A DNA stretch of 64,000 nt from Zygnema cylindricum (Eukaryota > Streptophyta > Zygnematophyceae > Zygnematales > Zygnemataceae). Below the pieces are notes generated by a model. The model did not search any database. It had not been told where the DNA came from and saw nothing but the letters and a program-made list of their open reading frames with translations. The position numbers and the translations under genes were made by a program. The DNA is taken from assembly GCA_037447655.1 (NCBI GenBank), contig JBBHKE010000277.1, forward strand, positions 58,831 through 122,830, given 5' to 3'. Shown piece by piece: positions 11,562 to 59,449 of the stretch (positions are counted from its first letter, which is position 1; each line of letters opens with the position of its first letter).

Positions 11562-13351
11562 TGCGCACCTTCAACACCCAAAACAATCGAAATTTCCCCT
11601 TACGACATTAACTTGACACTCAAAACCTAGACCAAATATTGAAAGATCCGCTTCAAAGCCTCCCAGAGGCTTTTTTCAATGCTTGGCAATACTTGTCATG
11701 CCGTATCACGTCGTCGCATATTAACCGCATTTAAATTGCATATAAACGGTCTGTAAAATTTACGCCACACTAATTTGTATTTTGGTATGTTTCGATGGCG
11801 ACAAGACCGTACAAATTGTCGTTGACGCCATGAAACCCGCTGCAGTTTCAGTTTCTGTCCGCGAAGTCGTCTGTCTGGGAATTTTGGCGAACCGACATAC
11901 TTCGTCGGCCGGAATTTCCGCGACTAGTTTGGATCGATGTAAGGACGATCGCGAACTGAAACATCAACTCCAAGTGATGTCGACGTCAGCGTGGATTCGA
12001 ACGCGAATCTACGGCCACGAAGGATGCAGAGGAATGGACGGTCCAGATGCGAACTGCACGCAGGACCATTTTAAGTCGTGGACCCTTGGAGGTCGCACGC
12101 ATTCACATGTAGCGTAGGAAGGGTTTTTATCCGTAGGCTGTAGATTTTGTAACGTAAGGCACACGATTCTGGTCGCCTATTGGCCAAATCCAAACTAAGC
12201 GCAAACAACTACATAGAACGCATGTAGGCGTAATAAGGTAGACTCTTAGGTGTAGACTTTGTACGTAGCGAATGTTAGGTGAATTATGTGCTCACAATTT
12301 CAAGAGCTCAGGAATTCTCATTTTGGAAGATTTGACCTAAAATTTGAGTATTTTTCTTGTGAAATTGTCAGGATAGTTTTAGTGACTACTTTTCTGGTCA
12401 TTGAGCGTTCTGCTGCTTAGCTCTTACTTTCTTTCTCTGTAAACCTGCCCTACAAATTAATCTACGCGGCTCACGCCGAAGCCTAAACGGTTTCCCTTCA
12501 CTTCTTCTCGCGTCCTATCAAGTGGATTGCTGCTCGGTCTTCTTTCTCAGGCTGTCGCTGAACCCTGGATTGTGATTGGACAGTTTTGGGTTTGCTTGTG
12601 TGGTTTACTGCGTGATAGTGGATTAGAATTGGCTTTCCTTGTATGTTTCGTGTGTGACTAAATATGGTTATCTCAGATTTGCTCGCAGTTTGCTACAGTT
12701 TCAGTTTGTGTGTTGTGATATTGAGTTAAATCTTTATTTATTGAACTCCTGTAAGCAATATAAACTGACCAAGGAGCCTAGTGGCTATCCGTTGGCTTAA
12801 TGAATAAACTGAGCCTCCAAGCTTCCTCTCTCACTCTACCTTTATTTTTCTTATGATATGTTTATTTGCTGCTTGCTGCTTGTACATAATTATTCTCACT
12901 CATTTTCTGAGATTTTCATGAGTTTCTCGCTTATTTGTTTATTATTTATTTTGCAGTTGATTGTGTTGCATGTTTACCATCCATTTTGTCACATGCACGA
13001 CAAGCCTGACTGCGCCGCCATCCGGAAAATCTCTCCAATTTTTCAGCAGGGATTTTGTGAAAGTCTCGCTTTGTTTACCACCGCCATGGATTGCATGTCA
13101 CCCATGTCATCGCTTTCTTGCCATCTGCTTACATTCATAGGGTGTTTACTTTATTAGGGTTTTGTTGTTCGAAATGGCAAAAAATTTGCTACCAGGTAAC
13201 TCCACCATTGATGACGAGGCAATATCTTACTCTCTTACTGTGGTTGAATGTGATCTATCAGAAGTAACAACCAAAAACATAAGGGAAGATAAAGAAGGAA
13301 AACTAAAAAAAATTCATAATAAAAAATTGGAAAATAAAACTTAAAAGACAA
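11562..13351. other. Non-coding or unrecognised sequence
   Basis: A GC-richer patch (11780-12120) is open for 111 codons on + but its translation resembles no family I know. Around 12960-13140 another open stretch preceded by a pyrimidine tract and CAG could be an exon or retroelement leader. A short frame starting ATGGCAAAAAATTTG at 13174 runs to 13344. None of these is convincing as a gene. Confidence 0.3.
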
Positions 13352-13700
13352 AGCAGAGTTATCTGTCTAATTATCTGGGTAATTATTTGTCTATATAACC
13401 TGTCTAATTCTCTATCTAATCTAATTCACTAACTAATTTAATTATCTTTCTAATCTAATTATCTATCTAAGTTAATTATTAGTCTAATTATCTGTCTAAT
13501 TATTTATCTACTTAACTGTCAAATTATCTATCAAAATATCTAATCTAATTATCTATCAATTTAGGTTTTTGATTATCTGTCTAATCTAATTATCTATCAA
13601 ATCTAATTATTTATTTAATCAAATTGTTTATCTAAGTTAATTATCTATCTAATTTAATTATCCATGTAATCTATTATTCCATCTAATCTAATTATGTATC
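13352..13700. repeat. Tandem (ctaattatctat)-type satellite
   Basis: Imperfect repetition of taattatctgtctaat and atctaatctaatt blocks for about 350 bases. It is non-coding. Confidence 0.85.
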
Positions 13701-14622
13701 TACACTCAGAAAACTTAGCAAACTTAAAAAAAACAAAAAAAAAACACCCTTAAGATATATATAAATATATATATTAGGTTGCACGAATTATCACATAAAA
13801 TTACCATTGCTTTATAGACAGGCAGAGCGTGGCATAGTGCTGATACGCGTGCCCTAACAAGCTATTAACTAAGTTGGTAATTGAGCTGTGGTGTCTACTC
13901 GACAATTTAGACTGGAGATAGTGGAGCTGATTCGTTTTTGAGAGCTTTGCAAAACTCCGGTTGGAGCGAACAACCGCTGTTCACCCTTGGCAATCGCCAG
14001 ATCGCTAACAGTGGTTTGTAAGTTCACGATGCCTTGTGGGTGCAGGCGCGTGTCAGGATACTTGTTGATCGTTTAGAGGGTACGTGAGTGGATTGGGTTC
14101 ACTTAGACCTAATTGTATTGAGCACTTGCATTGTCCACGCTTTCTATGCTTGCCATCTGGCCGTGAGTGGCCTTGTGTTTTTCTTGTTGTCTGTTTGGCG
14201 TGGAATTTTATTGTTAGATCGGGCCGTTGGTGGCCTTGGATAGAACTATTTTCTGCCTGTGGAGCTTTAGATCTGCACCTCCGGGTGCTTATTTAGCAAG
14301 TTTCTCTCTTTATAGATCTGGCCCTTTGTCCTTGCCCACTCGTTTGCAAGGTAGAGGTTTCGGTAAAAGCGGCCTCTTGACTAGATCTGGCCATCGTGGC
14401 CTTGTTAGAGACTGTTTGAGATTGTTGCCTACGTATGTGGTATGGTTTAGCATTTGTTGCACCTCGTATTGGGCGTATCCATTAGCGGATTAGTTTGTTA
14501 TCTCAGTCACTTTTATGCCCACCGATTAGGAGAATCTTGACCACTCATACGGATCTACACGTAGTGGTGGAACTTTCGGTTCATCAAATTTCGATCAATC
14601 AAATTTATCAAATTCAGTTCCT
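13701..14622 (+). other. Putative leader of a retroelement with repeated ctggcc motif
   Basis: The block agatctggcc...gtggccttg recurs near 14153, 14216, 14315 and 14383 with variation. The segment leads directly into the gag-like frame at 14623 and may be its LTR or 5' UTR. I could not define LTR ends. Confidence 0.35.
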
Positions 14623-15060
14623 TTGACGTTAAGTCCTTTAATCGACTCTAGAACGTCTTCTACTAGTTCGAATTTAACCACTCTCTCATCTTTGTCATCC
14701 ATTCTTTCCACGCTATCTGTGGAAGAGGTTGATAACGAAAGGGAACCCGTTTCAGATTTTCTTTCTTTTTGGTCTCCGTTAGCACCGATTCAAGCTTTGA
14801 ATTTGACTAACTCGTCTCTTTTGATGGCCTCCACTTCGGAGGGTACTCCTGGTAAACTTCAATTCTGCTTTTCCGGAATGAAGGATACCATGAGTTTATC
14901 TCATTTTCGAATGCTATTTAACACTGAAATGCGAGATCTAGCTTTCCGTTATCAAGATAGATTTAACATGCGTGTGGCTTTCTCCCTTCTCGGGCGTTAC
15001 CTTCGCGGGTCCGCCCTTATCATATATTCTCGCAAGTATGATGGCATACTTGTGAAACTG
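14623..15060 (+). pseudogene. Truncated gag-like frame
   Basis: The 146-codon frame is Ser/Thr-rich for 75 residues and then reads as a structured segment with SLSHFRMLF, EMRDLAFRYQDRF and LLGRYLRGSALI, resembling the N-terminal half of an LTR-element Gag. Homology stops exactly where the element A LTR starts (15061), so the rest was cut away or replaced. Assignment to Gag is inference from composition, the helical pattern and context. Confidence 0.4.
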
Positions 15061-21297: not shown

Positions 21298-21810
21298 TCA
21301 TTCTCCTTCGTAATACCCCCTCATGAGCAAAGCTGCCTGTTGAAACGGATGAAACACCCCACCTGCACAAGCATGTGCATCTAAAAGGATGTGGAATTTG
21401 TTAGAATATTCAGCCATTGTACCGCTAGTGTACTTATAGTCCCAAATTTGTCCAACCAATAGAAGCTCTTCCTGGACATTTGCCTTTTCATAATCATTTT
21501 TAAGAGATTTCCAGATATCAATTGCTTTTTTCATTTTTATCCGAGACATAGCTAAGTACTGAGATATACAAAATTTCAAAATAGAACGAGCTTGCGTATT
21601 TTTCTTAGACCATGATGGATCAGATTCATCCAGCGAACCATCCAATATATCCAAAAGATTGACATTCTCAAAATGTATCTCCACCATATTTGCCTAGTAA
21701 ACATACTTTTCCTCCAAAAAGATAGGAGTTCTTGATGACAGGCCCATAACCTGTTGTTCTAGAACCACTGGTGCAGGTGGAGGAGCAGCAGTAGTAGTAG
21801 AAGTAGACAT
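21298..21810 (-). pseudogene. Copia fragment B: Gag N-terminal half
   Basis: The - strand start at 21810 reads MSTSTTTAAPPPAP, then VLEQQVMG. It then crosses a stop and continues as a UBN2-like Gag with IDIWKSLKNDYE and QIWDYKYTSGTMAEYSNKF. It is joined near 21298 directly to the pre-integrase, so Gag C-terminus and protease are deleted. Confidence 0.75.
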
Positions 21811-22401: not shown

Positions 22402-22434
22402 CTGAGACTGAAATCTTTCCAAAAACAACAATGG

Positions 22435-23222
22435 CTAGGATTGAGGAAATCGTAGATAGAGATTTCCGGAACTGGTGGAATTAGAGAAGGAAAGAGGGAA
22501 AATTGAAATGTGGTCCCTTGGAGAGTCGGACAAAAAGATTTTCTTGTTGCATTCCCCCCCCCCAGCTGGTTGAGACGGATGTGCCTGAGAGTGGCGACCA
22601 GCTGCAAACCCAAGACCTAAAACAAAAGACAAAGATTGAGGGTCCATGACCCAACCTAATAAAGTGCATCTTTGGCGTTTTGTAAGACCAGAAGCGGTCG
22701 TAGTGCCAAGAATGAAATGCATGAGGTGTTCTCGTTCCTTAGAGGTAGGCTCTTCAAGCTCACCGGTATGAATGTTTCGGAGCATGCTAGGACCGTTATT
22801 AGGGAATGCCTGTGAATGTGGGTAAGAAACTAAGGTAGGAAGCACCTTGAGAGGTTGACCCAGGACATTGACACTCAAATTAGGGGGACAGTCCTTTTGA
22901 ATGCAAGGCTGCACCCTATGAAAAGGAACAAGGGCAGCCTAAATGTCTGTAAGAGGAGGATGAACTAACAAGTTGGCCTCACAGAGTCTACCAATATTGA
23001 TCAGGTTCGTCCATTTGGAGCGAACCCGTTGTGCTAGTGAACCATGGCGAGCCGCGTCAATAATAAGAGTCGAACCAATTAATTGTTCGATTCGTTGATA
23101 ATCAGCCAAGAATGTAGGTCTTGGGTCATTATAGGCTGCAAAATTTTCCAAGATATACCCCATTAGATGATCTAAAGTTTGGAGAAAATGCAGGATTCGA
23201 ACCAATTCAAAAAATAATTTGG
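22435..23222 (-). pseudogene. Cytosine-C5 DNA methyltransferase, 5'-truncated copy of the element C enzyme
   Basis: The - strand begins in TKLFFELVRILHF and then reads YILENFAAYNDPRPTF (motif VI, ENV changed to ENF), ARHGSLAQRVRSKWTNL (motif VIII), and further on KEREHLMHF and QRCTLLGWVMDPQSLS (motifs IX-X region). Each block has a close counterpart in element C at 26.8-27.4 kb. Homology stops just downstream of where the catalytic WEC motif would be, so the copy lacks motifs I-IV. One in-frame stop lies near 22937. Its tail runs past the methyltransferase into the linker before RT, in the same order as element C, so it is a piece of the same retrotransposon family in opposite orientation and not a host gene. 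Confidence 0.85.
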
Positions 23223-24281
23223 TGTTGTTTTGAAAAGTCAGTTTCGTACGAACGTGACAGTTTGTGAGTAATTGCTAATTGCATTTAATATGGAGGTTTG
23301 AATTGATTCATGGGTTGGGGGAGCGAACGTATGGATATACCTACATTGAATTAAGGGACTTATTGAGTGGTTGAACAAATATTGAGAAATGGACGGCGGA
23401 TTGCGAAGCGATTCGATGTACAATAATCAAAAAATTTAAATAGGCGCCGCCGGTACGGCGTAGCTGCGATGCAGACAGGATAACGCACTTGCGGTTACTT
23501 TGGATAAATATGTGCCGCCGGTACAGAGTAGCTGCGGCGCAGATAAGACAATGCAGCTGCCGATAATATGACTAGTATAGATTCTAAGTAATGATGATTC
23601 TACGCTAATGGTTTCTTAGTGGTAGCTGAGTGGTAGCTTGTTTTGTTTGACGTTCGAAGGTTGCAAATATGTCGGTGTAAATATTATGTTCAACAGAGGT
23701 TTGTCTTTATGCTAATTAGTTTATTAGTGTAGATTTGCTTAGTCTGACATACCTCGAATTATTCGAGTATACTCACAATAGTTTAGGTAGATGGTAGACA
23801 CCATACGGCTGGTATGCCTCTGTACATTCATTAGTGAACTCTCTGAGTATAACTTGTAGGACTTAGAATATTTTGATTATCACAGTCAAGTTTATCAAAG
23901 CAATGGCAAATTGTTTTCGACATCTTTGACCTGTTGGTGTGATCACCCTCTTTGGTGTTTTCATGTGAAACTTTGTGAAGTTATTTTATGATATAGAATC
24001 TATATGTGTGTGCAGTTTCATTCTATTATGTTATTTCTGTAAGATTCTGTGAGAGGTCTAAGTGGTTAGGTTGTGAAGCTGTCAGTTGTTTTTGTGAAAC
24101 TCTGGAACTTATATCTTCTAGATTCCTTGGTCAAATTGGCTGTAACTTTGGGAGGTTACAGTGTCTATAATATACTGCCTATTGGTGCAGTTTGAGGGGA
24201 TTTTTTTTATTGTGAAGTAATCTGTGCTGTCTCAAACACAACTGTTTGAGGGGTAGTCTGTGGTGCTTCCGAGAGTAGTCC
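23223..24281 (+). other. Non-coding; probable LTR/5' leader of element C
   Basis: The left part contains ggacggcggattgcg, an inverted match to sequence near 10985, and two related gccgccggtac...agctgcg blocks (23446 and 23512). The right part, 23.6-24.28 kb, precedes the Gag start of element C and is presumably its LTR and leader, but I could not find a second LTR copy to define ends. Confidence 0.4.
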
Positions 24282-25218
24282 ATGGCTAAAATAGGCTATA
24301 GACAACAGGTTATGGGCCCACACCCATGGCTACCCATATTTGATGGATCAAAATATCACTACTGGAAGGATGCACTCGAGAGCTACTTCGAGATGATGGA
24401 GCTAATGGATGTGGTGGACGGTACCTTGGCCAAAACATCAAATGGATAGAAAAGGAAAAATCATGAGTGTCTAAGGGTTATCAAGAACTCCTTGACTGAG
24501 GATTTGGTAATGTCGTATCTAAGTTTTACAAATGCATCTAATTATGGAAGTGCTTAGAATGCGTATGCAAAGACTTCTTTATATCATTGGCTTAGCAGTG
24601 TTACCAAAATAGTTGAACACAAGTATGTAGGAGGTAGTATGGAGAAACACTGTATTGACTTACAAGTATTATTTGCAAAAAAATGATTTGGCACAAGGAA
24701 ACTTCAAAGATGCCCAACAAGCTACATTGTTAATGAGAAGTCTACCTAAAGAATATAAGAGTGCATTCGATCAATTAACTTTAATTGATAAAAGGGATTG
24801 GAGCTTAACTGTAGCAAGACGTGTTGTTCTAGATGATGAGGCTAATAGAAAGGTTTTATCAAGTCAAACGAATATAAAGGAATATAAGTCTCAGTTTCAG
24901 AAAATTAAAAAAAATAGCGAGTTTGGAGATCGGCCAAAGAATTGTTTTTATTGTAATGATTTGGGACATACCTTCAGGGTATGTCCGTCGTATAAAAGTG
25001 CATGTGTTACAAGGAATTTCACAGATGGATGGGTTAACAACCTAGTTCTATCTGCGACCTGTACACACTGCAAATAGACTGGCCACTTTGGGTATCGTTG
25101 TCACATCAAAAACCCTGAATTTTCATATCAAAATCAGATTCGAAATGGTGGCATACCGGCTAGATCTGCTAAAGTAGTCCAACCAGATAAAGAGTCAGAA
25201 AAAAACTCTTCACCTAAA
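24282..25218 (+). pseudogene. Element C Gag with two CCHC knuckles
   Basis: ATG at 24282 opens a frame with QQVMGP, then WLPIFDGSKYHYWKDALE and MELMDVVDGT, the copia UBN2-type Gag start. Two stops interrupt it, and a run of seven A near 24676 marks a +1 shift into the frame used for the rest of the element. That frame has ATLLMRSLPKEYKSAFDQL, a first knuckle CFYCNDLGHTFRVC and a second knuckle CTHC...TGHFGYRC that contains a TAG at 25075. Gag would form the particle and package RNA. The copy cannot produce an intact protein. Confidence 0.75.
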
Positions 25219-26292
25219 GTGTCTCGGAGAGAAAAAGAGAGAGAGGAAATGCAAACTCAAATGGCCGCTATGATCAAAGACCAGTTTGCAGGCCTTATGG
25301 CTCAAATGAAACCGCCCACTCACCTAACTGGTAAGGCTCGTACAGTTGTCCACCTGCCCATGCTAGCAGGTCAAGTTTTACGAGATTCAACCATTCAAAA
25401 GAGGGCAACCACGTTTGACAAGGGGACAGTTGATCACAATCGCGAGGGTAAACAGAGTAGCACACGTCTACCATTATCATTTTCCAAAGAAACCACAACC
25501 AATTTACCCGAAACAGCTTCCACCATCACGGCGGAAGCACTCACTATTCTTCACCGCTCCATTCAGGACAGCCATATAGTTAAGGAAAGATTATGCATTT
25601 TGTCTAATATGATTTCCGATTCACCCAACCTAAAATCTACGGTGACATCCATCCCATTTGCAGCATTACAGGCTTTACAAATGAACCGTAATCTTTACGC
25701 TCTTAGGCCTATCTCTACCGAGGAGCGTAGTTCACTTGACCCACACATCACTTTTCTAGATAATGGGAAGGGTGCATTTTCAGTCAATGGTGTCGTAGCG
25801 TCATTACCACTTATGGACACCGGTGCAAAACAAATCATTTTGGGGTCATCTTTTGCACTAAAACTAGGTCTGACAGCTGATAAACTTCAGTCCACTTCCA
25901 CACGTTTACTCACCTCAACGGGAACAACCGAACCAGTTTTGGGCATTACGAAGGATCCACTCTGTTTTAGGTTTCAAAATGGTACAGAATCTGATTTTGC
26001 GAAAGTTCGTGCACACGCATTGGTCACCAAATGTAGTGATTACGAGTGTTTAGTAGGGCAAGATGTGATTTTCAGAGTAGGAGGCGGCGTTGATATGTAC
26101 GATCAGACTTTTTCCTACCGTCCTACCAATTATCCGGAAAAGAAAATTTGTCTCCCTCTAATTTCAGCACGCCAATCCATGCCCATTATGGCTCACGTAG
26201 CCCAATTTGTCCCTGCTTATTCCGGAAATTCGGTGGGATTTGAAATTTTTCATTCTCTTTCCGCATAGGAAATTCTTCCCGATAGTCCTTCT
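25219..26292 (+). pseudogene. Element C protease region
   Basis: After a linker with EEMQTQMAAMIKDQFAGL, the frame reaches LPLMDTGAKQIILGSSFA with the retropepsin active site DTGA at 25816-25827, followed by hydrophobic strands as in Ty3/gypsy aspartic proteases, where a hydrophobic-hydrophobic-Gly near the end would be LVGQD. A TAG at 26266-26268 interrupts the same frame, which then leads directly into the methyltransferase. Confidence 0.8.
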
Positions 26293-27567
26293 TTGCCTGA
26301 ATTTTTCGATAATCCAAGTTTTATTATCGATTCTCACGAGTTCGATCACATCTACAAACACACACTTCAGATTCCTTTATCGCGGGTTCCACCTCTGCCT
26401 CTTATTTCTGTAGATCCTTCCGGATTTCTTCCCATTAATAGGAAACCAATTAGGGTAAAACCTCATCAAGATGGTCTAGTCATTTTAGACTTGTTCGCAG
26501 GCATAGGTACCTCTCTACTCTCATGCTTTCGCAACGGATTAGTTATCAAGCACTACTACTTAGTTGACACTGACCCTTTAGCTCGGAAAGCCCAAACGCA
26601 TCACTGTAATCTTTTACACGGACAACATCCACATCTTTTCCCTAAATCTGCTTTTGCTCATATGCATACATCATTACCTCAAGATATTCGTTTGATAGGA
26701 AACCAACACCTTCTCGATGTAGGACGAATTGATCTTCTTTTTGCCGGTTGGGAGTGTTAAGGAATGTCACGAGCAGGCAAAGGTCTCGGCTTAGCTGATC
26801 CCCGCACCAAATTATTCTTTGAATGACTTCGTATCATGCATTTTTTGCAATCTTTCGATCGCCCATTGGGATATATTATAGAAAACGTGGCAGCCTATAA
26901 CGATCCTCGACCTACAGTGTTAGCTGATTACAAGCAGATAGAGGCATTAATCAGTCCTCCTCTTATCATTGATGTCGCTCGTCACGGGTCGTTAGCTCAT
27001 CGGGTTCAATCTAATTGGACCAACTTGATTGATATTGGACGGCTTAGCGAAGGAAATCTTTCTGTCAAACCTCTTTTTACAGATATTCGGACTGCACTTC
27101 TTCCTTTTCACAAAGTCCAAACCTGTTCGCAGCTTGATCACCCACCGAATTACAACATTAACGTCTCAGGCCAACCACTCAAAGTTCTCCCCACTCTAGT
27201 GTCTTATCCACACTGTCACGCCTTCTTTGGTGATGGGCTCGGCGTGCTCAAAAATATTCACATAGGCGGCCTAGATGAACCTACAGCCACAAAACGAGAA
27301 CACCTTATGCATTTCCTTCCCAACACTACGGCAGCCTATGTTATCACAGATTGACAGCGCTGCATCCTTTTAGGTCGTGTCATGGACCCTCAATCCCTCT
27401 CATTTGTCTTAGGCCTCCGGTTTGCAGCAGGTCGTTACGCACAAACCCATCCGTCTCAACCAGCTGGGGGGGGGAATGCACCACCAATTTCTAAACACAT
27501 CGTCACCCTTAGAGGGACACCTTCTCAATTTTTCCTTTTCCCATCCTTTATAAAAACCTTCTCCTGA
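26293..27567 (+). pseudogene. Element C cytosine-C5 DNA methyltransferase domain
   Basis: All main C5-methyltransferase motifs are in order. Motif I is ILDLFAGIGTSLL (26488-26508, AdoMet binding). Motif IV is LFAGWEC followed by GMSRAGKGLGLADPR, with Cys at 26755-26757 where most enzymes have PCQ. Motif VI is YIIENVAAYNDPRP (ENV at 26881). Motif VIII is ARHGSLAHRVQSNWTNL. The terminal block is KREHLMHF and RCILLGRVMDPQSL. The enzyme would methylate cytosine at C5 in DNA. Stops at 26758 (at the position after the catalytic Cys), 26824 and 27352 inactivate it. Size, about 330 residues, fits a bare catalytic domain without PWWP, CXXC or chromatin-reader modules. The WEC form and HR...WTNL recall retrotransposon-borne enzymes more than host DNMT1/CMT. 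Target specificity is unknown. Confidence 0.88.
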
Positions 27568-27586
27568 TGTCACAATCTACGATTTC

Positions 27587-28205
27587 TTGAACCCTAGACA
27601 CATGTCATGGTCCATTCCGGCATATACTGCTGCCCAATCTGCTCCCTCTAGTCATATGTCAACACCTCCTCACTGGACTGCAGCCTTTTCTACTCGCAGC
27701 TGGCACCATTGGACAAACTGCTTACAAGAAACACCGGTTGTTTACTCATTAGGTCAGTCACTTATCGCAGATGAACAGCTAGCTTTTGCACAAGCCATGG
27801 AAGCAATGACGATTAAAGGTTCGAAAACTCCTAAATGGAAATTTGGCTCTAATCTCTCTCAATCTGAAAATGATCTACTAAACAAAGTGATCCTGCAAAA
27901 TATCGACGCTTTTGCTTTCTCTATGAATGATCTTGGTTGCCATACCACGTATAAAATGTCTATAGATCTCGAAGACGATCGCCCCATTTTCAAGCCAAAG
28001 CATGCCTTATCTGAAACGGAAAGGGAATTAGTGGACCAACGGTGCTCTGAATTGGAGGAAGCTGGCCTCATTTATCGGTCGGATTCTACTTTTGCAGCAC
28101 CCACTGTCATGCCTAGGAAAAAAGATGCCGAATGAAACTTTACCGATCGTCGGATGTGCGGCGATTACCGGGAACTCAATGCTAGAACGATACAAGATCG
28201 ACATC
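27587..28205 (+). pseudogene. Element C Ty3/gypsy reverse transcriptase, N-terminal part
   Basis: After a linker, the frame reads LNKVILQNIDAFAF, then PIFKPKHALSETERELVDQ, LEEAGLIYRSDSTFAAPTV and PRKKDAE, and beyond a TGA it continues with RRMCGDYRELNART and DRHPVP. This is the classic Ty3 RT fingers region. Homology ends at 28205 within HPVP, before catalytic motif A, at the junction with the 1.47-kb repeat. Confidence 0.85.
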
Positions 28206-29675
28206 CAGTCCCTGCTGGTGCAAGTGTGACGCCTAGTGGGAGTGGTGCACAGCCAAGTCAAAATGTCCATGACCTTCAACAAAAAAAACGCCCAAAGATA
28301 TTAAAAAAAAATGGTTTTTAGAGATCTTTCATTTGATATCATTATTGACGTTTTCCATTGCAAGATTCGTGAGATACAGGCGCTATTGGGAGAGGGAGAG
28401 AGAGAGGCGTTTTCATCGACTACGCTTTTCCAAAATGGCGTCCGTTGGTCGAGACCCCTCCACGGCCCTGTGCAAAAAAAAGCGGACAAAAAAAGTCACG
28501 AACGGGTTGGAAATGTGCAGTGGGTTTTTTTTTGGTTATGCGGGCACAAAAATTGTCAAAAACTTATAACGCGTGCGACGACATTTGCCTATTTGCTCGC
28601 CTCATTGAACTTTATTTAAAATCACCTCGCGAGGTGATTTTATATAAAGTTTGAAGATGGGCTGGAAGGACGCGAAATCGGGTCGAAACGCGCTAGAGGA
28701 CAAACTATACTACACATAAAGTTTTAACGTAATACAACTTGTACGGTGGTAATTTCATTTTTTTGGTACGGCTGCGGATTTTCTTGTTTTTTTATAAGTT
28801 ATGGAGGAAAATGACAGAAAATAACTGCAACTTTATCACATGCAAAAGTACCCTTAGGATGTACGAAAATTTGTCTTGTGTTTTTTCGACCCACTGTCAC
28901 GTCATCTTCAAACTTATCAGAAACCACATCGGCAATGTATTTAACCAAAGTAAAATTGTTTACATAAACAGGTAAACATATTCCCACGTGTGAAGGGTTT
29001 TCAAAAGTTTTTTACGACTGAAAAAAATACAGAGTTGTTCGTTTTGTCCGCACGCACGTTGTACAGTTTTTGTTTTTCTCCGCATGCACCTTGTACGGAT
29101 TTTTTTTGGCAAAGGGCCTCGAGGCCGCAGTGTCATTTCACGCAAAGTTGAAAAATCTGCGAAAAATGAAAAATTTGGGAAGTCATGGCGACCGGACAAG
29201 AGAGGTTTACAAAGTCATGTTGTACAACCACGACTGTTGTGCTGTATGTCTACGATGTCACGCAATGACATGTGACGTGCCGAATCGTTTCTAAAATTAC
29301 GATGTGTCTTGCGATGCTTCAAAAAGTTCTGAAAAAATGCGGTGCGGCAAAGACAAATTGTACACGATGATAAACGTCACGAGTATTGTTGACATATACA
29401 ATCGTCACAAACTTGAGTAACAATTTCGAGTTAACACATAAAGACACCTGAAATCCGGGTCAGTTCGATCCACAATATTATATAAAGTAAGTTCTCTAAG
29501 TTACAACTACATTGGGTCGTACCCTTAGGATAGGCCCCATGTGGCAAGTTCGGGTTTTTTTCTGTCGTTTTCCTTTCAAACTTAGCACCGTACTGTCAAA
29601 GTTGCGATCGTACAAAGAAATCGCAAATATATAGAGTACAATTAACGTCATTGTCAAACTTATGATGTATAAAAA
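28206..29675. repeat. 1.47-kb direct repeat, copy R1
   Basis: Nearly identical to 31578-33046 (offset 3,372, changing to 3,371 after a one-base difference in a T run near 29100). Its first 70 bases are the start of a copia Gag (VPAGASVTPSGSG). The rest is non-coding and contains the 26-bp palindrome and gtcacgtcatcttcaaac, a block also found at 33075 and 62980. The right end joins copia RT coding abruptly at 29676. Confidence 0.9.
28617..28642. repeat. 26-bp palindrome, copy in R1
   Basis: Perfect inverted repeat with half-site taaaatcacctcg. The core is shared with 7777-7798. Confidence 0.8.
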
Positions 29676-31013
29676 CCTGTTGTAAGGTTTCCATCTCTCT
29701 GCATCTTACTTACACTAGCTGCCATAGAGGATTTTGACATTCACCAAATGGATGTCAAAACTGCTTTTTTGAATGGTGATTTAGATGAGGTCATTTATAT
29801 GAAGCAGCTAGAGGGTTATGAGGAAGCAGGAAAAGAAAATTTGGTGTGCAGACTTTTAAAATCTTTGTATGGCTTGTAGCAAGCTCCGCGACAGTGGAAC
29901 AGAAAATTATATGAGTTCTTGACACGATTAGGATTTACTAGAATTAGTTCTGATCATTCAGTATATGTGATGTGTGGTGATAATCGTGATGAGATGATAT
30001 TCATTGCTGGGTATGTTGATGATCTACTACTAATTAGTAGGAACAAAGAAGGAATTGCTAAAGAAAACATGCTCATACTTCACAATTTCAAATGAAGGAT
30101 TTGGGTGAGGCAAAATATATCCTAGGAATACAAGTTGAAAGAGATAGAGAAAAGAAAATAATTAGGCTAACTCAAAAAGAAACGATAGGAAACATGTTGG
30201 AAAAATTTGGCTTGGATAATGCCAAAGGTTGTGCAACTCCTAAAGAATATAAGCAAAAACTTGAAGGAAAGGAGCATGAGTTTAAAGTAATAATAGATGA
30301 GGAACTTAGTGCAGAATAGCAAAAAATTATGTCTCAAGTACCTTACAGACAAGTAGACAAGTAGTAGGAAGTCTGATATACTTCATGAATTGTACTAGGC
30401 CTGATATAGCTGCAGCTGTTGGTGTATTGAGCAGAAGTTTGCAAAACCCACGAAAGAGAGACTGGGAGGCAGCAAAAAGGGTCTTAAGGTATCTTGTTGG
30501 GACTAGAAATCTTTGGCTTACTTTGGGAGGGGACAAAGTTAGCATTAATACTTGGAGTGATGCTAGCTATGGTGATGTGCCTAGTAAGAAGTCTACAACT
30601 GGGTATGTCATTCAGATTCAAAGTGGAACTTGTAGTTGGAGAAGTAAACTTCAAAAGGTCACGGCACAATCAACTATGGAAGCCGAATACATGGCTGCAA
30701 GCGCAGCTTTGAAAGAGTTGCAATGGATTAAGTAATTTCTTTAAGAATTGGGTTTTACGCAACACGGGACACAAATAATGTGGTGCGACAATCAGGCAAC
30801 CATTTCTGTGGCTACAAACCCAAGTCACCATATTAAGAGTAAACATATGGACATTCCGCTACATTTGGTACGATAGAAAGTATTTGCAAAAGTGGTCAAA
30901 CTTCGTTATTTGCTTGATGAGAAAATGGTTGCGGACATGCTCACAAAAGCCCTTTCTGCTCCTAAGTTGGAGTACAGCATAAAAGCATGTGGTCTAAGTG
31001 AGAAAGTCTTCTA
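29676..31013 (+). pseudogene. Copia RT C-terminal part and RNase H fragment
   Basis: Starts inside RT with VVRFPSLCILLTLAA, then IHQMDVKTAFLNGDLDE (motif A), SLYGL-stop-QAPRQW (motif B with a TAG) and AGYVDDLLLI (motif C). A frameshift near 30090 leads to MKDLGEAKYILGIQVERD. RNase H follows with NCTRPDIAAAVGVLSRSL, WSDASYGDVP, STMEAEYMAA and, after two stops, WCDNQATISV and ADMLTKALSAPKLEY. It is closely related to element A at the protein level. Gag-to-integrase coding is absent, replaced by repeat R1. Confidence 0.9.
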
Positions 31014-31512
31014 AAGCTTAAGGGGAGTAATGAAAAGTAAGCTTTAGTAAGTCTTAGAAATTTGAGTCTATGACTTCAAATATTTTTTGAATACGAACTG
31101 TTCAATATTGACCAAATTTAGTGTGGATTTTTCTAGTATCTACGCGGATAGTTATCTTTAAGTAAATTAGTGTGTAGGGCGGCCAATGAATGTGGACGTG
31201 ATAAGAATCACCCGGATTATTAGGGTATAGATATTGTTAGTGGACAATTCTGGTCCATACACTTAGATTTTTGTCAAAAGACTGTCTAGTGAACCTTGTA
31301 CATACGTTTTAGATATTTTGAAGATCTTTAAAGTATTTAATTAAATTAGGAATGATCAATTTGATACAAAATGTACATTCTACACAGAGTTTAAGGAAAT
31401 GAGAGCACTAAGTGCACTTTAAGGTGTTTTCTGTTCTATTGTCGTTATTTTGGCTGTGGTATATGTTTGTCTGGTTGTAAGACCTCTCTCACTTAAAGCT
31501 ACATATCTTACA
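31014..31512 (+). mobile_element. Polypurine tract and putative LTR of the copia fragment
   Basis: Directly after the RNase H stop comes aagcttaaggggagtaa, a polypurine tract, then TGAAAAGTAAGC at 31031. A likely LTR end is ...ATCTTACA at 31512, followed 50 bases later by a Gag ATG. This means the LTR is shared by the fragment on its left and the Gag start on its right. The exact right end is not confirmed because no second LTR copy is visible. Confidence 0.5.
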
Positions 31513-31561
31513 ACATAGATCTAGTCAAATAGGTATTCTCTTTGGGTTTGTTTCTGCTGCC

Positions 31562-31654
31562 ATGTCTACTAATGGCTCAGTCCCTGCTGGTGCAAGTGTG
31601 ACGCCTAGTGGGAGTGGTGCACAGCCAAGTCAAAATGTCCATGACCTTCAACAA
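31562..31654 (+). pseudogene. Start of a copia Gag, interrupted
   Basis: ATG at 31562 opens MSTNGSVPAGASVTPSGSG and reaches VHDLQQ, then runs into an A-rich junction and stops. Fragment B starts similarly (MSTSTTT...) and then has QQVMG, so the break falls just before the conserved Gag domain. Codons from 31578 on are also present in R1. Confidence 0.6.
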
Positions 31655-33046
31655 AAAAAACGCCCAAAGATATTAAAAAAAAATGGTTTTTAGAGATCTT
31701 TCATTTGATATCATTATTGACGTTTTCCATTGCAAGATTCGTGAGATACAGGCGCTATTGGGAGAGGGAGAGAGAGAGGCGTTTTCATCGACTACGCTTT
31801 TCCAAAATGGCGTCCGTTGGTCGAGACCCCTCCACGGCCCTGTGCAAAAAAAAGCGGACAAAAAAAGTCACGAACGGGTTGGAAATGTGCAGTGGGTTTT
31901 TTTTTGGTTATGCGGGCACAAAAATTGTCAAAAACTTATAACGCGTGCGACGACATTTGCCTATTTGCTCGCCTCATTGAACTTTATTTAAAATCACCTC
32001 GCGAGGTGATTTTATATAAAGTTTGAAGATGGGCTGGAAGGACGCGAAATCGGGTCGAAACGCGCTAGAGGACAAACTATACTACACATAAAGTTTTAAC
32101 GTAATACAACTTGTACGGTGGTAATTTCATTTTTTTGGTACGGCTGCGGATTTTCTTGTTTTTTTATAAGTTATGGAGGAAAATGACAGAAAATAACTGC
32201 AACTTTATCACATGCAAAAGTACCCTTAGGATGTACGAAAATTTGTCTTGTGTTTTTTCGACCCACTGTCACGTCATCTTCAAACTTATCAGAAACCACA
32301 TCGGCAATGTATTTAACCAAAGTAAAATTGTTTACATAAACAGGTAAACATATTCCCACGTGTGAAGGGTTTTCAAAAGTTTTTTACGACTGAAAAAAAT
32401 ACAGAGTTGTTCGTTTTGTCCGCACGCACGTTGTACAGTTTTTGTTTTTCTCCGCATGCACCTTGTACGGATTTTTTTGGCAAAGGGCCTCGAGGCCGCA
32501 GTGTCATTTCACGCAAAGTTGAAAAATCTGCGAAAAATGAAAAATTTGGGAAGTCATGGCGACCGGACAAGAGAGGTTTACAAAGTCATGTTGTACAACC
32601 ACGACTGTTGTGCTGTATGTCTACGATGTCACGCAATGACATGTGACGTGCCGAATCGTTTCTAAAATTACGATGTGTCTTGCGATGCTTCAAAAAGTTC
32701 TGAAAAAATGCGGTGCGGCAAAGACAAATTGTACACGATGATAAACGTCACGAGTATTGTTGACATATACAATCGTCACAAACTTGAGTAACAATTTCGA
32801 GTTAACACATAAAGACACCTGAAATCCGGGTCAGTTCGATCCACAATATTATATAAAGTAAGTTCTCTAAGTTACAACTACATTGGGTCGTACCCTTAGG
32901 ATAGGCCCCATGTGGCAAGTTCGGGTTTTTTTCTGTCGTTTTCCTTTCAAACTTAGCACCGTACTGTCAAAGTTGCGATCGTACAAAGAAATCGCAAATA
33001 TATAGAGTACAATTAACGTCATTGTCAAACTTATGATGTATAAAAA
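31578..33046. repeat. 1.47-kb direct repeat, copy R2
   Basis: Near-identical partner of R1, lying 3.37 kb downstream, including its palindrome (31989-32014). At 33046 it passes directly into a diverged third member of the same repeat. Confidence 0.9.
31989..32014. repeat. 26-bp palindrome, copy in R2
   Basis: Same sequence as 28617-28642. Confidence 0.8.
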
Positions 33047-54228: not shown

Positions 54229-56660
54229 AATTGATTGGGGGAGGAAGAGGGAGAGGTAGAGGGAGAGGGAGAGAGAGAGAGGTAGAGAGAGAGGTAGATG
54301 GAGAGGGAGAGGGAGCCGGAGAGGGAGAGGGAGAGGGAGCCGGAGAGGGAGAGGGAGCCGGGGAGGGAGAATGGGGACTGGAAGGAGAGGGAGAGGGAGG
54401 AGGAGAAAAAGGGAGAGTGAGTGGTCGAGGGAGTGGGAACGGCAAGAGTGGGAAATGGAGAAGGAGAGGGAGAGGAAGATAAAAAGGGAAAGGGGGACGG
54501 ATATGGAGAGACAGCGAGAAGGTGAGGGAGAGGAAAAGGGAGAGGAGAAGGTGTGGGAGTGCGTGAGAGAGAGGAAAAGTGAGAGGTGAGGGAGAGGGAG
54601 AGGGAGAAGGAGAAGGAGAGGGAGAGGGAGAGGGAGAGGGAGTAGGAGAGGGAGAGAGAGAGGGAGAGGGCGAGGGCGAGGAAGAGGGAGAGCTTCAGAG
54701 TGGTAGAGGGGGAGGGAGATGGAGAGGGAAACGGAGAGAGGGAGAGGAAGAGGGTGAGGGGAAGGAAGAAGGGGAAGGGAAAGAGGGGTAGAGGGAGAGG
54801 GAGAGGGAGAAGAAGGAGAGGGAGAGAGAGAGAAAGAGAAAAACTTGAAGGAAGTGGAAGAGGGAGAGGAGATGGAGAGGGAGAGAGAGAGGGAGTGGGA
54901 GAGAGATGGGGAGAGAGAGAGGGAGTGGGAGAGAGATGGGGAGAGAGAGAGGGAGAGGGAGAGGGGAGAGAGGGAAGTAAAGGGAGAGGGAGAAAGAGTC
55001 GTAGAGGGAGAGGGAGAGGGTGAGGGAGAGAGAGAGAGGAGAGAAATAGGCGAAAAGAAAGGGAGAGGGAAAGAGAGAGGAGAAGTATAGGGAGAGGTAG
55101 AGGGAAAGGTAGAGGGAGTGGAAGATGGGGAGGGAGAGGGGGAGGGAGAGATGTTGTGAGAGAGGGAAAGGTAACGGGGAGTGAGAAAAAAAGGAAGAGG
55201 TAGAGGCATAGATAGGTAAAAGTAAAGGGATAGGGAGAGAAGGATTGGAAAAAAGAGGGATAAGTAGGAGAAGAGGGAGAGGATGCGTGAGAGTGAGAAG
55301 GAGAAAGAGAGGGAGAGGAAAAGCCGAGGAAGTGGGAGAGAAAAGAGGGATAGGGAAAAGAGAGGGAGAGGGAGAGGAAGAGGGAGAGGAAGAGGGAGAG
55401 GAAGAGGGAGAGGTAGAGGGAGAGTAAGTGGGATATGGAGATGGAGATGGAGAGGGAGGGTGAATAAGAGAGGGAGAGGGAGAGGGAGAGGGAAAAGGGA
55501 ACTATAGGGAGAGGGATAGGGCAAGTGAGAGGGAGAGGGAAAGGTAGAGGAAGAGGGAAAATGAAAGGGAGAGGGAGAAGGATAGGAATAGATAGAGTTA
55601 TTAGTAAGGGGAGAGGGAGAGGGAGAGGAATAGGGAGAGGGAGAGGGAAAGGGATAGGGTGAGGGAGAGTAGAAGGGAAAGGGAGAGTGGAAGGGAGAGA
55701 GTGGGAGAGGGTTACGCGAGAGAGAGGGAGGGGGGAGGGGAAGGAAGAAATGGGAGAGGGAGAGGGATGGAGAGATAGTGGGAGAGAGAGAGTGGAAGAG
55801 GGAGAGGGCCTAGGAGATAGAGAGAGGGAGGATAGGGAGAAGTAGGGGAAAGTGAAAGGTATAGGGAGAGGAAAGAAAGAGGGGGAGAGGAAAGAAAGAG
55901 GGTGAGAAAAAAGAAGACGGAGAGGGAGAGGAAGACGGAGGGAGAGGGGGAGCGGGAGAGGCAGAGAGAAAGGTATAAGTTAAGGATAAAGAGAGTGATA
56001 CTGGGAGGAAGAGGGAGAGGAAGAAGGATAGGGAGAGGGAGAGTGAGGGTGATAAGAAGGAGAGGGAGAGATAGAGGGAGAGGGAGAGGGATATGGAGAG
56101 GGAGAAGGAAAAAGAGAGGGAGAGTGAAAGGGAGAGAAAGAAAGGGAGAGGGAGAGGGAGAATGGGAAAAAAGAGAGGCAGAGGGAGAGGGGGAGGGAGA
56201 GGGAGAGGAAGAGGGAGAGGGAAAGGGAGATGGCGAGGGAGAGGAAAAGGGTGAGGGAGAGGGAGGGGGAGAGAGAGAGGGCGGGGGAGAGTGAGAGGGA
56301 GAGCAAGAGGAAGAGGGAGAGGGAGAGGGATAGGGAGTGGTAGAGAAAGCGGTCTAGTATAGGGATGAGGAATGGGGGGCGGTAGAAGATGGATAGGAAG
56401 GGAGGGAGAGGGAGACCTAGTGACAGAAGGGGAGATAGGTGGAGGGAGGAAAGGAGAGAAAAAAGAGAAATAGACGGAGAAGGAAAGGGAGAGTTAGGGG
56501 GAGAGGGGGAGGGAGAAGTAGAGAGAGCGGAAGAAGGACATGGAGATTGAGATGGAGAGAGAGATAGATAGAGAAGAAGAGGGAGAGGAAGAAATAGATG
56601 AAGAGGATGACTAAGAGGGTGGTGGAGACGTGGAGAGATATAGGGAGAGGGAGAGGGAGG
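54229..56660 (+). repeat. GA satellite (gggaga)n, about 2.4 kb
   Basis: The + strand is almost pure purine, built on gggaga/gagagg hexamers with many point changes. All long reading frames across it (Arg/Glu/Gly-rich on +, Pro/Ser/Leu-rich on -) are products of the repeat. Confidence 0.95.
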
Positions 56661-57395
56661 GACTTTGTTAGGTGTGGAGAGGTGAGGGGATTACAAATCT
56701 GACTAGAACATGGAGGCGGGGAGAGAAAGGGGTAGGAAGAGAATAAGGGAATTTCTGAGGAGAGTGAGGGATGAGGTATGAGGGGGAAAGCTAAGGGGGA
56801 GGGAGAGAGGAAGAGGAGGGGGGTTAAAAGAACAAGGGGTCTCGTAGGGAAAATGAGGCGGTACGGTTGGGGAAGAGATTTTCTTACTTGAGTAAAGAGG
56901 GAGGGGGAAGGAGGGTGATAGAAGCGGAGGTTGAAGGAAATGTGGAATGTCTTCAGGAGATGGAGGAAAGAAAAAGAGAGGGGAGTGAGGGGGAAAGGGG
57001 TGAAGATGGAATGTGGGATCTTGTAAAGAGACGGCAGGAGGTCGTTGATATTATTAAGACAAACAGGGGAGTGGGAGGGTAGCGATGGGGAAGGGAAAAA
57101 AGGGAATTTGGGGAAGTTTTTCTTGAAGGGATAGGGAAGGGATTACAAGAGTGCGAGGGGAGATGGGGAGGGAGAGGGATGGGGGGCAAGAGAAAAGATC
57201 TTTGGGAGAGGGAGGAGGTTCGAGGAGAAATCTTGTTAGGAGTGGGGAAAGAGTGGGAGGATAGGGAGAAGAAAATCGACACTAGAACTTGTTAGGAGAG
57301 GGAAGTTGGAAATAGAAAACAAGATGGCGGTGAGAATAAAATCATGCGGTCAAAAGTGGTATGGATGAAAGGGAAACTGTTGGGGAGAGAGTAAA
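56661..57395 (+). repeat. Degenerate purine-rich sequence
   Basis: Still G/A-dominated but with interspersed unique bases; probably old GA satellite. No gene. Confidence 0.7.
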
Positions 57396-58140
57396 TCAAG
57401 GATTATGTCAAGAGAGAGGGGGAAAGGAGGAGGTGAAAGGAGAGGGAAATGGGTTGGTGGGATGAAAAGAGACTGGAGAAGGACAGGTAGAGGGAGAGGG
57501 CGAGTGAGAGGGAGGGGGAGAGAGAGGGGGAGAGGGAGAGGGAGTGGGAGAGGGATAGGGAAAGGGAGAGAGAGAGCAAAAGGGAGAGAAAGAGGGAGAG
57601 GGCATGGGTGAGAGAGAGGAGGGGAGATGGGGAGGAAGAAAGGAAAGGAGGGGGAGTGGAGAGGGAGATGGATGGGGAGAAGGAATTGGAGAGAGAGAGA
57701 GGGAGGGGATAGCGAGAGGGAGGAGATTGAGAGAGGGAGAAGGAGAGGGAGAGAGAAGAGTTAGGGAGTGGAAATAGAGAAGGAGAGGGCGAGGGAGAGG
57801 GAGACGGAGAGGGTGAAGGAAATGAAGAGGGAGAGGGAGAGAAATAGTGAGAGGGATAAGGAGAGGGGGAGGGAGAGGGAGAGAGAGTTGGAGATGGGAA
57901 GGGAAAGGAAATGGGAGAGGGAGTAAGGGAGGAGAATAGTGAGGTAGTTGAAAAGGGAGAGGGAGAGGGAGAGGGAGAGGGAAAGAGAAGAGGCAATATG
58001 GAGGGAGAGGGAAAGAGAAGAGGCAATACGGAGGGAGAGGGGGAGGAAGAGGGATTGGGAGAGGGAGAGGGAGAGGGAAAGAAGAGAGTCAAGGGGGGGG
58101 GGGGGGGGTGGGGGGGGGGGGGGGGGGGGGGGGAGCGGGG
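57396..58140 (+). repeat. GA satellite ending in a long G run
   Basis: gggaga repeats as above, then G runs at about 58088-58135. Confidence 0.95.
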
Positions 58141-59449
58141 GAGGAGGTAAGGCCAGGATGTCATGTCCATTTTGGTTGAGGTGCTTGGAACAAGTATAGA
58201 TAACAGCTTTAATATGCCCACAAGGTCATTAGGGCTATTACTTTGGACCAAATTAGGGATTGGTTTCCAAGGACCACAAAATAGTTGGATTCTTCGTGGA
58301 ATTTTTGAGACTGACGCAACGACTCAGGGAATATGTCTCAAGGTATAATTTCAAGGAAAAGATCTTAACACAATCGAAAACCATTGCTGCCAAATATTGT
58401 CAGGTTGAGATTGGGTAGGCATCCTCATATTGACGCAATTGACTTAAGAGCTTAGAAAACCTACGAAAACACAGCTCAAACAAGGCTTCAAAGGTTTGTC
58501 TATCTTGTAAAGTTGAGCTAACAACGAATGATAGACTTCAGCCTCCATTTGTTCCCTTGTCTTTTGGATTTTTTTGATGCGTCTGTGCATTCAAATGGCA
58601 TCGTTGTGCATTGTTTGCTCGAAGGTGAGGGTTGGACGTGGACTAAAAGGAAGTGAATAGGGATAAGGCGTAAGAACTCAAGGAACAGGGATAGGCGTCA
58701 GAGCTAGGGAGAGAGTGAGTTACTTCCCTCGACTCTAGGTGCATTAGGTCTTGGTCCATTTAGGGATATGTCACAAAAAGATTGATTTAGATGGGACGCT
58801 AGCGAGTTTCCCAAAGCAGGTTGACCAAAGATTTCCTTAGAGAGAGGGAGTGGGTGGGTGGGCTTACCAAGGATATTACCGGCGAAGGCAAAGGGAGAAG
58901 AGGATGTTAGGACCAGACATTTCTCTCATTTAGTTCTCATTTTGCATCCTACTCGGTCACTCAATAACAATTCACATAAAAATTACAAACCTCTCTTCCC
59001 ATTGTTAAACAACCCATTTATTTTTATTTTTTTTGTTGAACAAAAACCGTTTTCTTCAAGTCTCTTTCATTCCCATTATCTACTTCCACTTGAAGCGTTT
59101 ATGTTTTATTATCATGAAATATTGTTAAATTTCACAAAATCGTTCACAAGAAAGGCGTAATCGTTAACTATTGAAGACGATACTTTCCACGCATAAATTA
59201 TTCTGAGAAATTATTAATTTATAAATTCTTTACCAAAATTTATGTCAACCTTTGAATAGGATTTAAATCTCCGATTCACAGCCACCTCTACTGTAACAAA
59301 TAATTTTCTCAATACACGGTTTGAAAAACTCAAGTACGTTAAACACTTACTTATTTTGATACTAAAAAATCAAAATCACATAAAAAAAACCAAAAAAGGA
59401 CTCCGTTGAATATAAAAAAAGTACGTTAGAAAGATTCTTTAGGAGGACT
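58141..59449 (-). other. Mostly non-coding; two unrecognised coding-like segments on the - strand
   Basis: On the - strand, about 58310-58160 reads through [12 protein letters not shown] and [13 protein letters not shown], and about 58600-58480 reads KIQKTREQMEAEVYHSLLAQ. These have protein-like composition but no family I recognise and different frames, so exons of an unknown gene or a decayed element are both possible. The rest to 59449 is AT-rich sequence after the kinase stop (its 3' UTR side). Confidence 0.25.

Follow-up and report, generated by a model that had tools for sequence, protein, structure and literature searches.

A Ty3-type retrotransposon family of Zygnema cylindricum with a DNMT3-like methyltransferase between protease and reverse transcriptase: decayed fragments in one window and whole copies elsewhere in the genome

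DNA methylation normally silences transposons, and a transposon that keeps a methyltransferase of its own under selection is therefore a puzzle. This puzzle is raised by a stretch of 64,000 nucleotides of the streptophyte alga Zygnema cylindricum (contig JBBHKE010000277.1, positions 58,831 to 122,830; hereafter the window), in which a first-pass annotation had described an LTR retrotransposon with one reading frame running from Gag zinc knuckles through a protease and a cytosine-C5 methyltransferase (MTase) into a Ty3-type reverse transcriptase (RT). Retrotransposon-borne methyltransferases are a known kind. The accessible text of de Mendoza et al. 2018 (PMC5890265), the one study found to deal with the subject at length, describes KnitGypsy-Dnmt3 of Klebsormidium nitens, an element whose Pol contains Dnmt3, whose repeats are DIRS-like and for which Ka/Ks < 0.2 is given, and reports de novo CG methylation by the DNMTs of other retrotransposons; a paper of 2025 (PMC12344493) mentions, in its available part, Copia and DIRS elements with DNMT3.

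The methyltransferase element in the window is real, and the window copy is a decayed fragment. In blastn, the match to whole methyltransferase elements elsewhere in the genome begins at 25050 and stops at about 28206-28207, and the plus-strand fragment 25050-28206, which reaches from a second zinc knuckle to the start of RT, is 94.6%, 94.2% and 91.8% identical to loci L028, L019 and L024, respectively, over exactly that span. Within it lie, all on the plus strand, the second CCHC knuckle of the element's own Gag (25060-25101, with a stop inside), which L028 has beside its own first knuckle, and a retropepsin-type protease (25726-26268, with the annotated DTGA motif at 25816-25827), which is colinear with a database protein, P0023, and matches PF13650 at E 4e-4, a value under that profile's curated cut-off. 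The protease is followed by a DNMT3-like C5-methyltransferase (26440-27354; alignments A1 and A2), in which motifs I, IV (GWEC), VI and VIII are found as annotated, and which has two internal stops and one at its end. Its translation, with X at the stops, matches PF00145 at 1.7e-9 and TIGR00675 at 5e-9, the latter under the model's cut-off, and its best match in the PDB is DNMT3A, at 1e-8. Phage methyltransferase profiles match too (PHROG 116, 6e-14), with E-values that are not comparable across libraries. After the methyltransferase comes a G-run (27466-27474), possibly a central polypurine tract, and all 14 loci read of the same family have a G-run of 6-9 in the equivalent position. The last component, the start of a Ty3-type RT (27554-28206), is recognized by the match of 27554-28135 to the RT of protein P0001 (E 4e-12 in a set of 11 proteins), while Pfam and PDB searches with this piece by itself gave no hit; the whole RT of another locus, L009, hits PF00078 at 1e-30. 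Only the first ~200 residues of the RT are present in the window, and from 28206 the direct repeat of a later insertion takes its place (28206-29675 and 31578-33046, 99.93% alike). Taken separately, the window pieces give weak hits or none against Pfam.

Thus, protease, methyltransferase and Ty3-type RT start do occur in the order first described, and it is the single frame and the Gag that did not survive. Five stops (25075, 26266, 26758, 26824, 27352) interrupt the copy, and the RT lies in a different frame from that of protease and methyltransferase. The knuckle at 25060-25101 belongs to the element, but the Gag upstream of it (24282-25049, plus strand) is a foreign, copia-type fragment that adjoins the element without being part of it. 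This piece matches PF14223 weakly and the copia Gag at 21298-21693 of the window with E 2e-11, and has at least 40 other matches, at 88-94%. When a query crossing the junction 25049/25050 was searched (40 of 793 candidates scored), none of the 39 other matches listed spanned it, all of them ending at query position 249-251 or beginning at 251. The Gag in this stretch is a mosaic, since homology to the element begins at 25050 and none of the matches listed spans the junction. The suggestion that the type of Gag helps to define a new lineage was accordingly rejected, as the copia-type Gag belongs to another repeat and, among the matches listed, its junction with the element is private to the window.

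Other pieces of the family are scattered through the window. A second methyltransferase fragment, comprising the C-terminal half plus linker, lies on the minus strand at 22431-23224; it is 69% identical to the plus-strand copy and 92-93% to L014, L015, L016 and L023, and belongs to another subfamily. On the plus strand, an end-repeat unit (11694-13002, TGTC...GACA, both ends read) consists of parts A and B that are 96% and 90% identical to those of L028, and a leader with the true Gag start (13703-15055, 95% to L028 1205-2549) is broken off by a minus-strand copia element. Kinase and dehydrogenase fragments are also present in the window.

Copies with the same architecture were searched for in the 352.8-Mb assembly (2689 contigs), a test that the first-pass annotation had set beforehand, and were found in numbers. 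PF00145 gave at least 123 scored matches in the genome, and the window methyltransferase gave at least 113 scored copies, itself included, out of 1752 candidates, at 60-100% identity; 25 of the 113 listed have no internal stop, some of the 25 being partial. In at least 54 of the 113, an RT hit follows on the same strand, 200-695 bp downstream (median 222), and among the RT hits listed none lies within 1.5 kb upstream of any of the 113, or on the opposite strand within 2.5 kb. Twenty stretches of 10 kb were then taken, chosen mainly for long open frames rather than at random. Fourteen of them belong to family 1, with the order protease-MTase-RT-RNase H-integrase (Gag hit in 13, PHD finger in 12), and five to family 2, with a divergent methyltransferase directly before RT (one without an integrase hit; in L013, a protease in the preceding frame); the remaining locus, L026, is nested and broken. 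In L009, a single frame of 2395 aa extends from Gag through PHD, with RVT_1 (1e-30), RT_RNaseH (1e-35), Integrase_H2C2 (1.5e-15) and rve (1.5e-12) in that order among its pieces, and this locus is 99.9% alike to L010 over 7.2 kb, yet the two have different 3' flanks. Unbroken, recently inserted copies are present in the same genome. The family is of Ty3 type; its whole copies encode Gag-protease-MTase-RT-RNase H-integrase-PHD, and what the window holds of it are decayed fragments. A chance chimera or an assembly error around a host methyltransferase could be suspected from the Gag/MTase junction, which is private to the window among the matches listed; since protease, MTase and RT follow one another in this order at 14 of 20 loci, which lie on different contigs, and at least 54 of 113 methyltransferase hits have RT downstream, such an origin was rejected as highly improbable.

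The enzyme itself is closest to DNMT3. DNMT3A and DNMT3B are the nearest solved structures both by sequence and by fold, the latter from a model of P0023, with ~20-24% identity in the structural matches, and they have the motif order and the AHR..W.NL form of motif VIII in common with the element enzyme. They differ in motif IV, where Glu-Cys takes the place of the Pro-Cys of DNMT3 in seven of the nine family-1 loci tried (the other two unread), and the L009 pieces gave no hit for a companion domain. In family 2, all six rows, which are five distinct copies, have Pro-Cys. The Glu before the catalytic Cys in family 1 could mean altered or lost activity. Pattern scans of viral contigs (36 and 30 matches) and of genome contigs (9) yielded no confirmed relative of the methyltransferase.

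The substitution pattern shows that this enzyme is constrained. Most differences between the two window copies fall on third codon positions (identity.76/.86/.47), and their dN/dS is 0.10, compared with 1.1 and 1.9 when the other frames are read; dS, at 1.92, approaches saturation. Further tests used loci with one whole match per domain only (8, 10, 12 and 6 rows). Between fetched copies, dN/dS of the methyltransferase ranges from 0.10 to 0.27 (5 usable of 28 pairs); in family 2 its median is 0.25 (12 of 15 pairs), and rows L006 and L013 are the same copy, so that these 15 pairs, with one copy counted twice, are not independent. The other domains gave similar values, the protease 0.27 in its one usable pair, and the RT a median of 0.16 over 9 pairs, with the pair L019-L024 at 0.73. 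By these ratios the methyltransferase is under purifying selection. CpG content gave no clear methylation footprint.

Relatives of the enzyme outside this genome were sought among 5.8 billion proteins, where the methyltransferase region returned 11 hits, of which 10 are strong and all carry domains of a Gypsy Pol. An RT motif precedes the methyltransferase in 8 of the 10, the other two being fragments without an RT motif, and Pfam, applied to 4 of the 10, places the integrase after the methyltransferase. These proteins (P0001, P0003-P0005, P0007-P0010 and kin; P0007 from a transcriptome-type set, EukProt) have a homologous methyltransferase, RT and integrase, and in most a PHD finger, but their order is RT-RNase H-MTase-integrase, with the enzyme after RNase H, whereas in the window family it stands before RT. 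A second search, with a profile of eight methyltransferases, gave 30 hits, and a third, with alignment A2, gave one weak protein and did not return P0023 of its own query. P0032, from Dunaliella salina, shares the RT-first order. P0023, one of the 30 hits of the second search, is an independent protein with the protease-MTase order, running from a protease end into a methyltransferase. It is colinear with the window, with which it shares 37% identity in the aligned part.

In the larger methyltransferase tree, 12 rows with the RT-first order and 17 unassigned rows stand on one side of a branch (96/99), and families 1 and 2, P0023 and the DNMT3 outgroup on the other, the outgroup covering only 35-40% of the columns. 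The smaller tree joins P0023 to the window copies with support of 99/99, a resolution that the larger tree does not give, and the unrooted RT tree keeps the same two sets apart (100/99). Of the 42 proteins found, P0036, P0038 and P0040-P0042 failed the domain cut; the smaller tree also lacks P0011 and P0039, and the larger one further lacks P0029, P0030, P0033, P0035 and P0037. From this split it follows that the place of the enzyme changed once, or that the enzyme was taken up twice.

The ends of the element are unusual. Six elements were examined there, and five of them show the arrangement A-coding-B-A-B, namely C1344, C829, C449, C1915 and, in part, C1407, which lacks its 5' end and has a different stretch before the second B piece (B2); the sixth, C783, gave no clear arrangement. 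The copy with the 2395-aa frame has identical A repeats of 931 bp, as read in C1344, where a B piece of ~240 bp stands both before and after the second A (A2), the two being 99.6% alike; the A repeats of C829 measure ~1.39 kb and have 5 differences. The elements begin with TGTC and finish with GACA, and 4-bp target duplications are exact in three of four, TTGG in C1344, AAGG in C829 and CCCT in C1915, the older copy C449 having TCAT/GCAT as its pair. Taking the end of A2 as the end of the element was tried and rejected, as it leaves CTTGG/GGGAA and no target duplication; the true end is B2. The description as an LTR retrotransposon thus needs a qualifier. Ty3-type RT, the RT-RNase H-integrase order and a DDE integrase are all present in the L009 pieces, as in Ty3/Gypsy elements, but in place of two plain LTRs at the ends there are split repeats of the DIRS kind. 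From DIRS elements the family is set apart by its DDE integrase and its 4-bp duplications, and a tyrosine recombinase gave no hit in the L009 pieces.

In the usual course of reverse transcription, the unit B-A would serve as the LTR, and we therefore infer that the integrated form is a two-LTR circle whose ends were joined and which was then opened at an internal site. The cDNA would be joined A to B into the circle, and the integrase would open it at GACA-GC-TGTC, leaving A-coding-B-A-B. This sequence is found at the B1-A2 junction in 5 of 5 elements where it was read. Alternatively, a truncated 5' repeat may be copied in each round, so that A and B are inherited as they stand, an idea helped by there being only six elements read at their ends, the same six on which the circle reading rests. 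We consider it rather unlikely, since B1 directly follows a G-run, the likely polypurine tract (12 of 14 family-1 loci), and the A2|B2 junctions vary among copies, C829 and C1915 differing although they belong to one subfamily; the window has a junction of its own at 12801/12802. B2 begins near the end of the G-run, retaining 0-3 of its G or lacking a few bases. To our knowledge, ordinary LTR elements are held not to integrate from circles.

Taken as a whole, the best explanation, to which we assign a probability of roughly two in three, is that a DNMT3-like methyltransferase is kept by selection and methylates the element's own cDNA, the circle being opened by the integrase. The element's protease would free the enzyme from the polyprotein, and the enzyme would methylate the double-stranded cDNA, probably in circular form, ahead of integration or in the course of it. 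New copies would then be methylated from the outset and, together with the PHD finger, be fit for silent chromatin. Judged from sequence, such elements may have the means to mark their own DNA in this way. Purifying selection is compatible with any role, and the enzyme might instead act in trans, its targets being the host's DNA or other copies and its effect a limit on copy number or a change in host chromatin, an idea raised in the discussion of PMC5890265; we regard this as unlikely, as the L009 enzyme lies in one frame with Gag and RT, which favours, if indirectly, packaging with the cDNA. Methylation of RNA, either the genome RNA or the primer tRNA, is very improbable: it was proposed in the same paper, in its accessible text, for a LINE-borne DNMT inactive on DNA, and the closest solved relatives here are DNMT3 DNA enzymes, DNMT2 scoring far lower. 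Returning to methylation of the element's own cDNA, its most detailed version, that two sister sets of PHD-bearing Ty3-like elements carry a DNMT3-like enzyme, mostly Glu-Cys, at different Pol places, and that the enzyme methylates a two-LTR circle which the DDE integrase opens at the internal GACA-GC-TGTC, is doubtful in all its parts together.

How much of this system has been described before depends mainly on KnitGypsy-Dnmt3. A Dnmt3-type enzyme in a Gypsy Pol, DIRS-like repeat order and purifying selection are all matched here, the comparison being by description only, and the host is likely of the same kind of group. It is quite possible, if somewhat short of an even chance, that the Zygnema family is of the same lineage and adds one more host; the accessible text of PMC5890265 gives neither domain order, with the place of the enzyme within Pol, nor PHD, protease or target duplication, features that were read here, and sequences named as K. 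nitens are absent among the protein search hits. SymbioDIRS-Dnmt3 and SymbioLINE-Dnmt likewise carry a DNMT, but are described in that text with a tyrosine recombinase or LINE machinery rather than a DDE integrase and Ty3 RT. A Ty3/Gypsy element of orchids, in the available text of PMC9289625, has also captured a nucleic-acid modifying domain, in that case an m6A RNA demethylase. In the open-licence literature, as far as its accessible texts go and with subscription literature outside the scope, neither the protease-MTase-RT order nor the Glu-Cys motif nor integration from a circle was found described. What is apparently new is thus this order, the sister order RT-RNase H-MTase-integrase elsewhere, the Glu before the catalytic Cys and the inferred mode of integration.

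With more than 100 scored copies, two families, young inserts and the sister order in other data, the role of the enzyme is open to test by comparing young with old copies. Split repeats with target duplications also make it possible to test, from sequence alone, whether a DDE integrase can use a cDNA circle. If the proposed reading is true, these elements would represent a self-methylating retroelement that integrates from circles.

Window positions 28206-33046 are occupied by a young copia-type insertion, which truncates the RT of the methyltransferase-element fragment. Its 1.9-kb middle, which includes a copia RT/RNase H piece, lies between direct repeats that are each about 1470 bp long and match each other at 99.93%. 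Elsewhere in the window, long, purine-rich tandem repeats of the GGGAGA type extend over 54237-58141.

Other methyltransferase types are also present in this genome. In the second retrotransposon family (L012, L013, L018, L021 and L022), a divergent methyltransferase is located just before the RT, and its identity to that of P0001, a Gypsy Pol protein of the RT-RH-MTase-IN type, is 36–39% at best, with one member at 34%; CpG content in this family is low (0.62–0.63 in L012 and L013). A third type, at positions 1252-2302 of locus L003, is 59% identical to family 2. In P0011, another Gypsy Pol protein from the protein searches, motif IV has disappeared from the methyltransferase region (residues 429-651), while the integrase and PHD are kept.

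Split direct repeats were read at the ends of the Gag-protease-methyltransferase-RT elements of family 1, at 15-945 and 9238-10000 of L009, at 1-655 of L029, and at further element ends. These repeats, composed of pieces A and B, contain an internal GACA-GC-TGTC junction; the elements that bear them encode a DDE integrase and show target duplications of 4 bp. At window positions 11694-13702, an A-B unit is followed directly by a tandem-repeat stretch and the family-1 leader and Gag start, with no target duplication visible at this arrangement. Judging from the repeat layout, duplications and junction, the source of family-1 integration looks like an opened two-LTR circle.
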